From assembly GCA_029553475.1 (NCBI GenBank), contig JAKPKV010000046.1:1-45810 (forward strand): a stretch of 45,810 bases of DNA. The letters are read 5' to 3'. Positions 15,308-32,300 of this stretch are shown here, one piece after another. This stretch comes from Armatimonadota bacterium (GTDB lineage Bacteria > Armatimonadota > Hebobacteria > CAIYQO01). The number at the start of each line of letters is the position of its first letter. The first letter of the stretch is position 1. The translations under genes were made by a program, and so were the position numbers. The notes beneath the pieces are model-generated. The model was not told the DNA's origin. It did no database searches and saw nothing but the letters and a program-made list of their open reading frames with translations.

Positions 15308-15616
15308 TTATAGTCTAGCAGATATCGCCGGCCGGGCGCCAGCCTCCCCCGGCTGCACATCCGGGGCTGAAGCCCCGCAGTGGCGTGGACTGGCTGGAGC
15401 GGGCCGACGGACCAGATACCGGGCAACGCGGGAGCAAGTTGTCACAGAGCATCACATGAACACCGCGCGTCACGCCAGATGCGCGATACCGACCCGCCAA
15501 CCTTTGGCGAGCAGATCAGCGTATCGTCAGTATCCAAACAGTACGGATGAAAGTCCATCGGCAAGCGATATTAATGGTGCGATCACAAATTTATGGTTTC
15601 CCGAGAAAATAATTCG
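15308..15616. other. Non-coding stretch between the HAD and flavin-reductase-like genes
   Basis: No gene is supported. It holds a hairpin CGGGGCT-GA-AGCCCCG at 15362-15377 and a 27-bp copy of the dispersed repeat at 15396-15422. From about 15500 onward the DNA becomes A+T-rich, in line with the neighbouring flavin-reductase-like gene. Confidence 0.5.
15396..15422 (-). repeat. Dispersed repeat, copy A (27 bp)
   Basis: On the minus strand this differs at only two of 27 positions from 17286-17312, and it also matches 32224-32249. The shared core is CCGTCGGCCCG. It is the shortest of the three copies of the modular element and is inverted relative to the other two. Confidence 0.75.
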
Positions 15617-16513: not shown

Positions 16514-16993
16514 CTAGTGCAGCAGCGTGGCGAGCATGTCGAACGGCGACGTGGCGGCCAGCGGGGTGAGCCGCTCGCGCAGCTCGCGGGCCAATGCATA
16601 GTGCGGCTGCATGATGAGCGCGCGGCGCAGGTGGCCGAGGCAGCGGCGAGCAATCCGGCGGCGGGCGCGCGCCACCGCGAGCTTGTACGAAAACAGCTTC
16701 TGCTTGCCAAAGTGCTCCACCACGCGGGCGCACATCTCGGCGTGGCGGCGTTCGTCCAGCGCTTCGCGCCAGGTGGTGCGCAGGCGGGCCAGCGAGACGC
16801 CCGCCACCGCCAGCTCTTCGATCAGGTCGCTGCCGATCTCCTCGGCGGCGGCGAAGGCGTAGGAATAGTGGGCTTCGGGCGAGCGGGGATTACAGCGCAA
16901 CGCCTCGCCGAACACGCCGAGGGCGGCGGCGAATTCGTGGGCGCAGAGATACTGGCGCCCCCGCGCCATCGCATGCTGATACCGGTCTCCCAT
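16514..16993 (-). CDS. TPR-type helical protein, paralogue 1
   Basis: A 159-residue soluble alpha-helical protein. A TPR-like helix pair is seen near the N-terminus (FAAALGVFGEALRCNPRSPE AHYSYAFAAAEE) and another near the C-terminus (CLGHLRRALIMQPHYALARE). The start at ATG 16993 has AAGGAGG 5 bases upstream. It is clearly paralogous along its whole length to the gene at 17433-17909 (shared AHY, FAFAA/EEIG, KLAVARARRR and HYxxARELxEKL patterns). The two lie in tandem on the same strand, separated by the 32-bp inverted repeat. Function unknown. Confidence 0.75.
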   Translation of the reverse strand: MGDRYQHAMARGRQYLCAHEFAAALGVFGEALRCNPRSPEAHYSYAFAAAEEIGSDLIEELAVAGVSLARLRTTWREALDERRHAEMCARVVEHFGKQKLFSYKLAVARARRRIARRCLGHLRRALIMQPHYALARELRERLTPLAATSPFDMLATLLH

Positions 16994-17432
16994 GCCAACC
17001 TCCTTCGAGAATGAGGCTGCAAGGGGAACGCAGCTACCTGTATAGTGTATATTCCTCAGTTTCGGCCTGACTATACGTGCCGTGGATCATCACGCTGTCC
17101 ACGCCCGGCGTCTCTCCCGATACATGCGCTGTGCCACATGCCTCCCGCATTGCTCGGCATCCGGGGGACACCGGGGCCGCGGAGTTGTACTCCGCACGCG
17201 TTGGCATGCTCTGTGTTCAACGACAGGGTGAGGGCACGCGTGCGGAGTACAACTCCGCGGCCCCGGTACATGCTCCCGCTCATGACCGGTATCCGGCCCG
17301 TCGGCCCGCTCCGGGGGGACGCACACCCGCCGATGAACAGCCCACCAAAGCGGCACCACCGGGATGGCACGTGTGCCCGCACGCGGAACCCGGTGGCGCC
17401 TGCCTGTCGGGTAGATGCGCGCCATCCACGCG
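16994..17432. other. Spacer between the TPR paralogues, holding the palindromic element
   Basis: No gene is supported; the open frames here are products of the GC-rich palindrome. The spacer contains the large inverted repeat at 17170-17267 and the conserved flank to about 17350. Such an insertion between tandem duplicates is a plausible site of recombination. Confidence 0.5.
17170..17352. repeat. Modular palindromic element, copy B (32-bp perfect arms)
   Basis: The arms 17170-17201 and 17236-17267 are perfect reverse complements over 32 bp with a 34-base loop. Each arm itself contains GCGGAGT-TGT-ACTCCGC, a 7-bp hairpin. The complement of 17170-17226 is co-linear with 32160-32216: CTGTCGTTGAACACAG, 6 variable bases, CCAAC, 2 variable bases, then 28 identical bases. 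The right flank to about 17350 (including CCGATGAACAGCCCACCAAA) also matches the flank of the copy at 32 kb. Confidence 0.85.
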
Positions 17433-17909
17433 TCAACTCAGCACGGCGGCCACCAGGCTCAGCGGCGAGGCGTCCGCCAGCGGCTCCAGCTTCTCCAACA
17501 GCTCGCGGGCGAAGGTGTAATGCGGGCGCATGGTGACGGCCATGTGCAGGTGCTTGACGCAGGACGCGAGCCGCCGGCGCGCGTTGGCGGCCGCGAGCTT
17601 GTAGCGGAAGATTTTCCTTTTCCCGTAGACCGTCGTCACGCGTTCGATGGCTTTCGCGTGATTATCCGGGTGCAGCGCGTCCTGCCAATTCATGTGCAGA
17701 TGGCCGAGGGAGATGCCGGCCTTCGTGAGGGCGACGAGGAAGTGAGCGCCGATCTCTTCCGAGGCGGCGAACGCGAAATAATAATGCGCGTCCGGCGCAT
17801 CGCGTTTGTACCTCAGCGCTTCCTGAAATGCGGCGCGCGCTTCAGCGAATTCGTGGTCGGCGGCATACTCCTTGCCCTCCATCATCGCTTTCGCAAAGCG
17901 GTCAGTCAT
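17433..17909 (-). CDS. TPR-type helical protein, paralogue 2
   Basis: A 158-residue soluble helical protein, full-length paralogue of the gene at 16514-16993. The TPR-like pairs are EFAEARAAFQEALRYKRDAP and CVKHLHMAVTMRPHYTFARE; the middle carries FAFAASEEIGAHFL and RKIFRYKLAAANARRRLA. I start at ATG 17909 (GAGGTG upstream), not at an in-frame codon near 18002 that would add an unstructured stretch. Role unknown; a dimerising or scaffold protein is possible. Confidence 0.75.
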   Translation of the reverse strand: MTDRFAKAMMEGKEYAADHEFAEARAAFQEALRYKRDAPDAHYYFAFAASEEIGAHFLVALTKAGISLGHLHMNWQDALHPDNHAKAIERVTTVYGKRKIFRYKLAAANARRRLASCVKHLHMAVTMRPHYTFARELLEKLEPLADASPLSLVAAVLS

Positions 17910-18037
17910 GGGGGTCCACCTCAAATAATCATCAGCAGCACGGGAGAAAATCGGTCCGACCGACCCCGGATCGGGGCATGGTCGCCGTGATAATGATACC
18001 ACGCTGTGGTGTTCAGCGCCAGTCGGGGCAACGTGTG

Positions 18038-27348: not shown

Positions 27349-28215
27349 ATGCAGATTGCCATGATCGCCACGATGAATCGGCCGCACGCGGTGGAGATCG
27401 TGCGGCGGACGGTGGACTGGCTGCGGGCGCGGGGGCACGCGGCGCGCATGGAGACGGCGCTGGCGCTCTCCATCGGCTGTCCGGAGCTGGGGGTGCCGGC
27501 GGACGCGGTGATGGCGGGGGCGGATCTGGCGCTCTCCATCGGCGGCGACGGCACCATGCTGGGCACCGCCTGCCTGGCGGCGCCGCACCGAGTGCCCGTC
27601 CTCGGCGTGAACGCCGGCGCGCTGGGCTTCCTCACCGAGCTGACGCCGGAAGCGCTGCCCCAATACCTGCCGCGCGTGCTGGCGGGCGACTACACGCTGG
27701 AGCCGCGCATGATGCTGCGCGCCCGGCTCCAGCGGGGCGACGCGGCGGTGGCGGCATCCACCGCCCTCAATGACGTCGTGGTGCGCCAGGGCGCCGCCAG
27801 CCGCATGATTAACCTGGAGGTGCGGGTGGCCGGGCACCGGCTGGGCCGCTTCGGCGCCGACGGCCTCATCGTCGCCACCCCTACCGGCTCCACCGCCTAC
27901 TGCCTCTCCGCCGGCGGGCCCATCGTCCACCCCGGCGCCTCGGTGATGGTGCTGGTGCCCATCTGCCCGCACAGCCTCGCCTTCCGCCCGATGGTCATCC
28001 CCGCCACCGACCCGGTGGAGATTCTCTGCCAGAGCAACAGCCACGGCGACGAGATGCTGGTGACGACCGACGGCCAGCAGCCCGTCACCGCCCAACCCGG
28101 CGACCGCGTCAGCATCGCCGTCGCCGCCGAACACGCCCTGCTGGTGAAGCTCGGCCTCTTCTCCTTCTACGACCGCCTGCGCGAGAAGCTGCAATGGGGT
28201 GGGAACCGCGGGTGA
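27349..28215 (+). CDS. nadK: NAD kinase
   Basis: A 288-residue cytoplasmic enzyme that phosphorylates NAD+ to NADP+. Diagnostic motifs are SIGGDGTML (GGDGT at residues 65-69), GVNAGALGFLTEL, ALNDVVVRQG and FGADGLIVATPTGSTAY, followed by SAGGPIVHP. ATG 27349 is preferred because the -10 element lies only 6 bases upstream; a GTG at 27334 overlaps that promoter. Convergent with the large lyase-like gene; a 33-bp inverted repeat lies between the two. Confidence 0.96.
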   Translation: MQIAMIATMNRPHAVEIVRRTVDWLRARGHAARMETALALSIGCPELGVPADAVMAGADLALSIGGDGTMLGTACLAAPHRVPVLGVNAGALGFLTELTPEALPQYLPRVLAGDYTLEPRMMLRARLQRGDAAVAASTALNDVVVRQGAASRMINLEVRVAGHRLGRFGADGLIVATPTGSTAYCLSAGGPIVHPGASVMVLVPICPHSLAFRPMVIPATDPVEILCQSNSHGDEMLVTTDGQQPVTAQPGDRVSIAVAAEHALLVKLGLFSFYDRLREKLQWGGNRG

Positions 28216-28242
28216 TGGTGAATAGAGAATGCAGAATAGTGA

Positions 28243-28270
28243 ATTGAGAATGGAAAATTGAGAATGGAAG
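28243..28270 (+). repeat. 14-bp tandem duplication ATTGAGAATGGAAR
   Basis: ATTGAGAATGGAAA is followed directly by ATTGAGAATGGAAG, inside a longer A/G-rich low-complexity run beginning at about 28214, just after the nadK stop. Confidence 0.8.
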
Positions 28271-28291
28271 ACTGAGCTGGGTGTAAATACT

Positions 28292-28381
28292 GTCACCGTC
28301 TGGAACAGGGCGAGAGCCCGGCCGTATACAGGTAAGTTTACCTATACTCGGCCGGGCTCTCGCCCTGTTCCAGACGGTGAC
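28292..28381. repeat. 33-bp perfect inverted repeat between convergent genes
   Basis: The arms 28292-28324 and 28349-28381 are perfect reverse complements over 33 bp. The 24-base A+T-rich loop carries its own near-palindrome AGGTAAGTTTACCT (28330-28343). It lies between the nadK stop (28215) and the stop of the minus-strand lyase-like gene (28395). It could act as a bidirectional terminator, but lacks T-tracts and is unusually long and perfect, so a small palindromic mobile element is also possible. Confidence 0.85.
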
Positions 28382-28394
28382 TATCCTGCAACGC

Positions 28395-31300
28395 CTATTG
28401 CAGTTTGATCGTAAACGTATGGCTGCCGGCCGGCAGGTTCAGCGTGAACCAGGTGTTGGCCTCCACTTTCACCGCGAACGGGGTACCGTTCACCGTCACC
28501 TCGGGGATGCCGTGGCCTTCAGGCAGGGTGAAGGTGACCATGTGCGGGCCGGTGCCGGCGCTCTCGCCCACCGCGGTGTTGCCGATGATCTCCACCGCCG
28601 CCTGGGCATTCGTGGTCAGCGCCCAGCCATCGCAGGAGACGGTATCGTTGTTCCCCTTCAGCATCGCCAGGCGGATCGTGCCGTTCGTGTAACGCCGCAC
28701 GAGACTGATTTCTCCATTGACATGCATGTCGCCGGATGTCGCGCCGGCAGGTATCCCCGGAGAGAAGAGCACGAGGTCAATGCCTTCCATGTGCTTGATC
28801 AGTAGCCCCTTCCCGCCGATCATCGTCATTTCCGCCGGCCCCTGCCCCGGCGCGCGGGGGTAGAGCACGCTGAAAAAATCCTCTTTCGAGCCGGCTTTAC
28901 GCACATGGACGCCGGTCTGCTCTTCCTCGAAGAACCCCCAGGGATTCACCCACTGCTTGTATGTGAAGGCATTTTTCGTGAAGTCCGGATTCGCCGGGGT
29001 CAGCACGTGGGCGTCCAGGTCCACGCCGAAGAGGCCGGGGAAATGCGCCACGTTCCCGGTGATCTCCGGCTCCTTCGCCATCACCCACACGTTCCAGGTG
29101 AAGGTCTGGTTCGGCTGCCCGTCTTTGGTGCTGTCGCGCAGCACCAGGTAGGTCGCCCCCATCTGGTCGTCGGATTTCACCAGCAGCAGGTGGCGGGTGT
29201 GCCGCTGATTCCCGCTGCCACAGGAGAGGCCGGTGGAATAGTCGAGGGTGCGCGGCAGGCTCAGCACCGCCTGCGCCGATGCATTCATCTCCCGCGGGCC
29301 GCCGCTCATGCCCCAATGCGTATGCGGCGCGGGGCGGTCGAAGGCGACGGTGGTGTGATAGTCCGGCCGCCACATCGTGCGCACTTCGTCCCCCGTCGCG
29401 CCGCGATGCCCGAAATCCACGCAGAGGGGCACGCCCTTGGCGTGATAGAGGATGCTGTTGCCATCACCCGGATCGTAGTGGTGGGTATAGTAGCCGCAGC
29501 GATGGGCGACGTAGCTGGCCTTCGGGTCGGTCCACGAAGTGCGCAAGATGTTGCCAAAACCTTCGAATTTCCGCGCCAGCTCGGCCGGCGGGGCGGCGGG
29601 CAGCCCCGGATCGCAAATGGCGAGGATGAAGCCGGGGACGCCGCGCCCGCTGTTCAAATTGCTGTAGGATTGCGCCTGCCAGTAGTACTGCTGGCGCGCG
29701 CTGTAAGCGGGATCGCTCTGGGCGGTGGCTTTCGCCATCCAGCCATTGAAGGGCGTGGTGAAGACCGGAAAAGCGTCGCCGATGCTCGGCACGGTCATCG
29801 GCGCGGGCACGCCGGCGGTCTGCGTCGGCGGGAAGCGGTGGTCCGGCGCGGTGAGGATGAAGCCGTAGTAGTCCATCGTCGCCCGGAAATTCGGGTCGGC
29901 GAAATAGTCCGTCCCCCTCACGTTCTTGATGGCCTGCGCCAGCAGGAACATGCCGTCCAGCGACGGCGCCTGGTACATCGGGCATTCGAGCCAGGCGCCG
30001 CCGGGAGCAATCCAGTCCGCCAGCTCGACTTTCAGCTCCTCTTCCGCGAATGTCACCCACCGCGCGGCGTGCGGGTGGCCATCGAGGAAGAGGCCGAGCA
30101 GCCCCAGCGGCAGCTTGAGCAGGCTGGTCATATTCGGGTTGGCGCTGCAGAGGCCGAGGTCGGTGTTCCAGTAGTCCGGATGGTTGAAGACGTAGCCGGC
30201 GAAGACCAGCGCGGCCTCGATATCCGCCTTGTCCTCGGCGGTGAGATACGCGGAGTCGGCGAGGGCGTCGTAGGCCAGCAACAGGCGCAGCATGGTGGTG
30301 CCGGACATGTGGCCGTTGCCGCCCAGGCTGGGATGGTACGGCGCTTCCAGGAACTGCTCCAGCACCTGACCGGCCATCCCCTTCACCCCGGCGGAGAGGA
30401 TGAGGCCGTATTGCGGGTCGGCAGAGCCGACGTAGGCCAGCGGCGCCTTCTCGTAGAGGCCGTTGCCCACGTAGTTTTCATCGAAGAACTTCTTCCAGCC
30501 TTCCTTTTGTATCTTCGCGTCCGGCACGCAGCCGAGCCGCGTCATATAGGTGGTGGCCTTGGCTAGCTCGGCCTTCAGCATGGGAATGGTCGCGGTCTGC
30601 GTGCGCGCGCGGTCAATATCCGCCTGGGTGAAGAGCAGGAACGGGTGCGTGCGCGCGGTGCGGGGGTAGTCAAAATGGAAGTCCTTCACCTCGTCCAGCG
30701 GAAATTCGCCGTACTTCAGGTGCTGGCGGCGCAGGGGAATCTCCTTCATCGCCTGCGTCACGTGCGCGCTGGCGGCGCCGAGGGTGAAGGCCAGCTCGCG
30801 GCGGGCGGGGGAGAAGGTCTCCGTGCCGTCCGGTTTCTTTTGCGTCCACGCGAGCAGGCCGAGGGTGATATCGAGCCCCCCGCCGGGGCGCGCGATGATG
30901 GGGATCGTCGTGCGGGCGAACCCACTCCAGTCCACCGGCGACCAGCGCGAAGGCCGCAGCGTCAGCACCCCCACGAACGGCTCCGCGCCGTCCTGGTAGA
31001 ATCCCGCCCAGGTGGTCTGGTCCGTCAGCCACCAAAAAGACCACGGACAGAGCTTGCTGATCACCTGCTCGTTCGCAAAATCAATCGGCGCGGGCTGCAA
31101 GCCTTTCGTCTGCGCGGCGTAGTAGTTATTGCGCCAGTAGACGCGGTCGGCGCCCAGGCCGGGCTGAAAGGCGAAGCGGAAGGCGGCCGCCGGCGCCTCG
31201 ACGTCGGTGGCATCGGTGAAGAAGGCGGCGTCCTGGCGCGCGCCCAGCGAGATCTCCGCCTGGTAGGAGCGGTCATCGGTGAAGGTGAGGCGGTAGCGCA

Positions 31301-31874: not shown

Positions 31875-32045
31875 GAAAAGCCTCCGTTAGCGCTGTCATT
31901 GGAGTTTGACACCGAACACTCCCGAGCGTTGCGGGCTGCCCACGCGTCGGCACATCGTGACCGTCGTCCGGCATGCCGTTTTGGCCCGCCGGTCTCCGTC
32001 GCGGCCGGCCCTTCCTGGAGGGCGAGCACGAGTCGTGCCCGGAGC

Positions 32046-32093
32046 GCGGACATCTTGTCCGCCCGTGCGTGGGAACGCGGACATCCTGTCCGC
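32046..32093. repeat. Pair of 17-bp palindromes GCGGACATCYTGTCCGC
   Basis: GCGGACA-TCT-TGTCCGC at 32046-32062 and GCGGACATCCTGTCCGC at 32077-32093, each followed by CCGT. Each forms a short hairpin with a 7-bp (first) or comparable (second) stem. They are spaced 31 bp apart start to start. Confidence 0.8.
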
Positions 32094-32150: not shown

Positions 32151-32300
32151 ACGCGTATGCTGTCGTTGAACACAGCGGGTACCAACTCGTGCGGAGTACA
32201 ACTCCGCGGCCCCGGTGTCTGCCCGATATCCGGTCCGTCGGCCCGATCCGGGGGACGCCCACCTGCCGATGCACAGCCCACCAGAGCGGAAACACGTTGG
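32151..32300 (+). repeat. Modular palindromic element, copy C
   Basis: Contains ACGCGT (32151-32156), CTGTCGTTGAACACAG (32160-32175), CCAAC and then 28 bases (32189-32216) identical to 17240-17267, followed by a flank matching 17286-17350 (32224-32287, including CACAGCCCACCA). Unlike copy B it has a single arm and so cannot form the large hairpin. Confidence 0.85.

Follow-up and report, generated by a model that had tools for sequence, protein, structure and literature searches.

A palindrome between two TPR-like genes of an Armatimonadota genome is very probably a REPIN of a lineage-expanded REP family, apparently mobilised by a RAYT

A stretch of 45,810 nucleotides (the window; contig C123 of a 5.27 Mb Armatimonadota genome in 194 contigs, 99.5% complete) carries, between two co-directional TPR-like genes, a long palindrome of which parts recur elsewhere in the same stretch, and this raises the question of what kind of element it is and how it arose. 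An earlier note on the window had described one modular palindromic element in three places, either a non-autonomous mobile palindrome or a family of structured RNAs, and had read one copy (copy B) as another (copy C) that had gained an inverted arm. The matches behind this description were reproduced, namely the perfect 32-bp inverted repeat of copy B (17170-17201 and 17236-17267), the co-linearity of the reverse complement of 17170-17226 with 32160-32216 (a run of 16 identities, 6 positions that mostly differ, CCAAC, 2 free bases of which one differs, and a run of 28 identities), the right-flank matches (17286-17350 against 32224-32287) and the inverted 27-bp piece of that flank, with two differences, at 15396-15422. 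The genes on either side of copy B are tandem paralogues, as had been stated (46% identity over 158 amino acids). The features of the window are collected in Table 1.

Table 1. Positions of the palindromic repeats and neighbouring genes in the window
Feature	Position	Strand	Basis
Copy B, full REP doublet (REPIN), 98 bp, with perfect 32-bp inverted arms	17170..17267	.	alignment, folding, match check
Left REP unit: ACCGGGGCC + hairpin GCGGAGTTGTACTCCGC (17179-17195) + A	17170..17196	+	copy alignment
Right REP unit (hairpin 17242-17258)	17241..17267	-	copy alignment
Doublet loop, of the type found most often among several	17202..17235	.	copy alignment
TPR-like gene, paralogue of the 17433..18002 gene	16514..16993	-	
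TPR-like gene; distance from its stop codon downstream to copy B about 165 bp	17433..18002	-	
Copy C, truncated doublet with a single REP (hairpin 32191-32207) and part of the inner loop	32160..32216	-	alignment
Repeat X copy with internal deletion between TCCGG direct repeats	17286..17352	+	
Repeat X copy whose internal deletion is of the same kind; approximate end	32224..32300	+	
Third repeat X copy, containing 15396-15422; boundaries approximate	15362..15455	-	
Tandem pair of REPs from another family, GGARC-GCGGACATCYTGTCCGC	32041..32093	+	

Folded as single-stranded DNA, the 98 nt of copy B reached -53 kcal/mol, compared with -20 +/- 2.5 in shuffled sequences (z = -13; 0/200 as good). The 17-nt hairpin GCGGAGTTGTACTCCGC occurs 136 times genome-wide at up to 2 mismatches, while the reversed-pattern control gave 0 matches, and the resemblance of copies B and C is therefore not due to chance. 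The pattern of tag plus hairpin gave 129 matches compared to 6 in the control, and copy B is thus a member of a dispersed family of about 130 REP copies. With the GGGGCC prefix, the hairpin was found in 121 copies here, in 7 copies in the sole congener compared (UR.bin144, an Armatimonadetes MAG, 78% complete) and in none of 59 other genomes of the phylum. When 84,980 species genomes were scanned for the exact REP unit of copy B (records of the genome itself possibly excluded), only UR.bin144 was matched. The family is genus-restricted and has expanded in this Armatimonadota lineage; the difference of 121 to 7 copies between congeners offers a route to studying REPIN expansion. The literature searched contained no paper on REPs in Armatimonadota.

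Alignment of the copies gave the consensus ACYGGGGCC-[GCGGAGT TGY ACTCCGC]-A, with a 7-bp stem and a 3-nt loop. In the REP of this family the foot ACTGGGGCC precedes the hairpin GCGGAGTTGTACTCCGC, and the foot motif is CTGG or CCGG (CYGG), not the GTAG/GTRG of the GTAG REP superfamily. The unit has sharp ends in the 69 singlets as in the 33 doublet calls, conservation in the singlets running from AC, 9 bases before the hairpin, to 1 base after it. The family thus has the conserved 5' foot, short hairpin, high copy number and mostly intergenic position of REPs in the broad sense; under a simple codon-usage model 27/33 doublets and 48/69 singlets were noncoding, and REPINs likewise are mostly extragenic. 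Inverted doublets were called 33 times (one in the congener; two calls of 105 bp are composites), and 21 of the 33 measure 98 bp, the others 75-105 bp, which is the REPIN arrangement of two inverted REPs at near-constant length. Their loops are of several types, some enclosing other palindromic repeats. The "variable linkers" of the earlier note are the ordinary loop of a doublet. The 98-bp doublet of the congener (L122) has a loop related to that of the doublets in this genome, so the doublet form probably predates the split of the two.

Compensatory changes, for which the earlier note had recommended a covariation check, were observed in both stems. In the 32-bp long stem of 30 doublets, 34 cells were changed on both sides compared to 19.2 +/- 3.9 in shuffles (0/500); one covarying position belongs to the 3-nt loop of the small hairpin and has a pairing partner in the long stem alone. 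Such a long hairpin with compensatory changes is a REPIN feature, although homogenisation could add to the covariation because the two arms are homologous. In the small hairpin, 10 of 21 distinct variants were fully paired compared to 2.8 expected (0/5000 shuffles), the compensatory variants being AGT/ACT, ATT/AAT, AAT/ATT, ACT/AGT and CGT/ACG.

Among known systems, the REPINs of Pseudomonas fluorescens SBW25 (Bertels and Rainey 2011, PMC3116915) share with the copy-B family the two inverted REPs around a loop whose length is fairly constant, the conserved ends and the long hairpin in which changes compensate each other, as well as a mostly extragenic position and, at the level of the class, a link to RAYTs. 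They differ in the foot (GTGG(GA) there, CYGG(G) here) and in that no RAYT lies beside the exact REP here. Mean identity was 93.7% among doublets and 91.7% among singlets (39/300 permutations), and singlets are thus not clearly more decayed than doublets, unlike in P. fluorescens. GTAG REPs and REPtrons (PMC3733652, PMC6006769, PMC8266576) share the 20-40-bp hairpin with a conserved unpaired foot on one side, the head-to-head dimers and the avoidance of divergent intergenic regions, but their foot is GTAG/GTRG where CTGG/CCGG is found here. The orphan CGTC REPs (PMC3733652) are likewise a REP family without an adjacent transposase gene; their foot motif is different, and the present genome has a RAYT whose REPs are built in the same way. 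The copy-B family is an addition to the known REP/REPIN class and not a new RNA family.

The search for a REP-type (Y1) transposase advised by the earlier note identified ten PF01797 loci in the genome, and a RAYT query added two further REP-type transposases. One RAYT (C176:120657-121232) matched NF047646 above the cut-off and has CTGGGAGC-GCCGGTGTCCTCACCGGC followed by A on either side, the same plan as the copy-B REP; the hairpin GCCGGTGTCCTCACCGGC has 23 copies in the genome. Several other transposases of the genome are bordered by their own hairpins or inverted repeats. A RAYT normally adjoins its own REP family (PMC6006769), and REPINs share the REP of their RAYT; no RAYT in the assembly lies beside the exact copy-B REP. 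As only REPs of the same architecture flank the C176 gene, the RAYT link holds for the REP class and not for the copy-B family itself. Three REP families in the genome have a foot of the copy-B kind (copy-B, C176-type and GGARC-GCGGACATCYTGTCCGC). Relatives of the C176 RAYT in other Armatimonadota are 57-42% identical, and 14 RAYTs including C176 form a clade (support 100/97). Read by eye and without a blind procedure, the REPs flanking members of this clade have mostly CTGG, CCGG or CGGG feet, with one GTAG foot inside the clade (L154), while the hairpins flanking more distant RAYTs have mostly GTRG feet (GTAG or GTGG). CYGG- and GTRG-footed REPs with their RAYTs in one phylum, with L154 within the CYGG clade, amount to a natural experiment on the co-evolution of guide motif and cleavage site.

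With respect to genomic position, the genes around copies B and C have orthologues in the congener (78-90% identical), and neither copy is present there. Where the window has about 386 bases at the copy B site, the congener shows about 42 that do not align; its copy C site carries an insert that is unrelated, with no REP. As far as these alignments go, the absence of both copies shows a difference between lineages and not a single clean insertion event, because more than the element alone distinguishes empty from occupied sites. Where both neighbouring genes were called (n=73), 29 copies had convergent neighbours, 39 co-directional and 5 divergent ones. Divergent gaps account for 31% of the noncoding bases and 21% of all gaps in the comparison set, compared to 5/73 copies; the family avoids divergent intergenic regions, as REPs do elsewhere (PMC3733652).

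Taken with the RAYTs in the genome, the many copies, the compensatory changes, the missing target-site duplications (see below) and the absence at congener sites support the "non-autonomous mobile palindrome" of the earlier note, and copy B is very probably a REPIN, that is, two inverted REPs round a loop, of a lineage-expanded family that was apparently mobilised by a RAYT. Counting against this are the missing RAYT beside the exact REP, the foot that is not GTAG/GTRG, a diversity of singlets not significantly above that of doublets, the further differences between empty and occupied sites, and the covariation between arms, which may partly be homogenisation. By such a mechanism, each REP would fold into its 7-bp/3-nt hairpin, with CYGG near the foot, when the DNA is single-stranded at replication. 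A RAYT (an HUH Y1 transposase) would recognise the motif and hairpin and cut near the foot, the candidate site being the conserved CY dinucleotide before GGGG. The doublet, folded as a single strand, would then move or be copied into a single-stranded target, leaving no target duplication, and singlets such as copy C would be doublets after decay. We infer the cleavage site and the single-stranded intermediate. The enzyme would be the C176 RAYT acting in trans or a lost sibling, since no transposase here is flanked by the exact copy-B REP.

Two other readings would make copy B something different. The 32-bp arms might be the terminal inverted repeats of an insertion sequence and copy B a 98-bp remnant moved by it, a MITE of a DDE transposon, for which the inverted arms, the uniform length of 98 bp and the many copies would be as expected. 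This is very unlikely: the check for target-site duplications proposed in the earlier note showed that none of 31 doublets is bordered by a 5-bp direct repeat, and hence not the constant-length duplication of a DDE MITE; the 69 solo units end at the foot of the hairpin; the arm is itself a self-complementary hairpin with compensatory changes; and the readable arm-flanked intervals, of 110-740 bp, contain other palindromes and no transposase-sized gene. An autonomous element between arms was also sought, and only nested palindromes were found there. A structured RNA, or an element at mRNA 3' ends that acts as a stabiliser, terminator or processing site, selected for a function in the host would agree with the compensatory changes, the very stable fold and the avoidance of divergent (promoter) regions. 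Against it stand the genus-restricted distribution with its large difference in copy number (121 to 7, in a congener genome 78% complete), two orthologous sites without the element, and a search of the family that found no Rfam family and no terminator-like site; as a primary reading, the structured-RNA family of the earlier note is thus not supported and we regard it as very unlikely, while a role in host RNA could be a secondary effect of the REPs. Integron attC sites were dropped, the copies being scattered singly with no cassette array.

A further variant overlaps with the preferred one and has close to an even chance of being correct: the family is the same REPIN family, and its cognate RAYT is not C176 but a dedicated enzyme that was lost or is missing from the assembly. 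The usual pairing of each RAYT with its own REP family speaks for it, as does the different hairpin, in only 23 copies, around the C176 gene, and the congener has 7 copies of the copy-B REP with no close orthologue of the C176 RAYT found. However, the congener is only 78% complete, no other RAYT of the C176 clade was found in an assembly that is 99.5% complete, three REP families here share this kind of foot, and a single RAYT in E. coli serves several REP types (PMC6006769). Returning to a RAYT acting in trans, we tentatively propose, as a possibility somewhat short of an even chance, that this Armatimonadota RAYT clade changed its guide, CYGG-type feet (CTGG/CCGG/CGGG) having replaced GTAG/GTGG and the cleavage dinucleotide being predicted to have changed as well, and that one RAYT serves several REP families in trans, of which this orphan REPIN is the largest.

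The relation of the copies in the window also differs from that first described. The single modular element resolves into two adjoining repeat families, the REP doublet and repeat X, a separate palindromic family of roughly 190 bp. Among the extracted loci, the left module of X was present in 26 copies and the right module in 18. The proposed gain of an arm by copy C runs in the reverse direction, the two-armed 98-bp form being common (about 30, one in the congener). Copy C is the truncated one because it retains the inner loop of a doublet yet lacks the other arm; the sequence adjoining copy C is a GCATACGCGTCATCAGCGCGTCAGCGC-type repeat, also present beside the copy in L036. Copy C lies in a divergent gap between genes and is preceded by two of the 61 genome-wide copies of the GGARC-GCGGACATCYTGTCCGC REP family, the region being a mosaic of REP-like hairpins in the manner of BIMEs. 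In several places, GGARC-GCGGACATCYTGTCCGC REPs also occur as oppositely oriented pairs about 170-400 bp apart.

A number of further palindromes were observed. In a single case (L129, G000:C121:758-783), the hairpin of a copy-B-family REP contains a C176-type REP with TTGCAC on both sides, which is either a 6-bp duplication or re-use of loop sequence. In L015, L060, L061 and L076, the loops of larger arm-flanked elements enclose a second palindromic element, whose ends resemble GTAGCGGGTCGTCACG / CGTGACGACCCGCTAC; two copies have CAGATA-type sequence on both sides, possibly the target duplication of a different mobile element, and a similar end adjoins a Y1 transposase in L044. Orthologous RAYTs of the two congeners (L046 and L139) are both flanked by GGTAAATCGGTGACAGAC...CGCATTACTGAG repeats, which are of a long-TIR type unlike REPs. 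Finally, window positions 28214-28398 correspond to an orthologous intergenic region (L190) in which the congener has a copy-B-family REP; a different palindrome (AACAGGGCGAGAGCCCGGCCG...) is found here, a difference which points to rapid turnover of intergenic palindromes.
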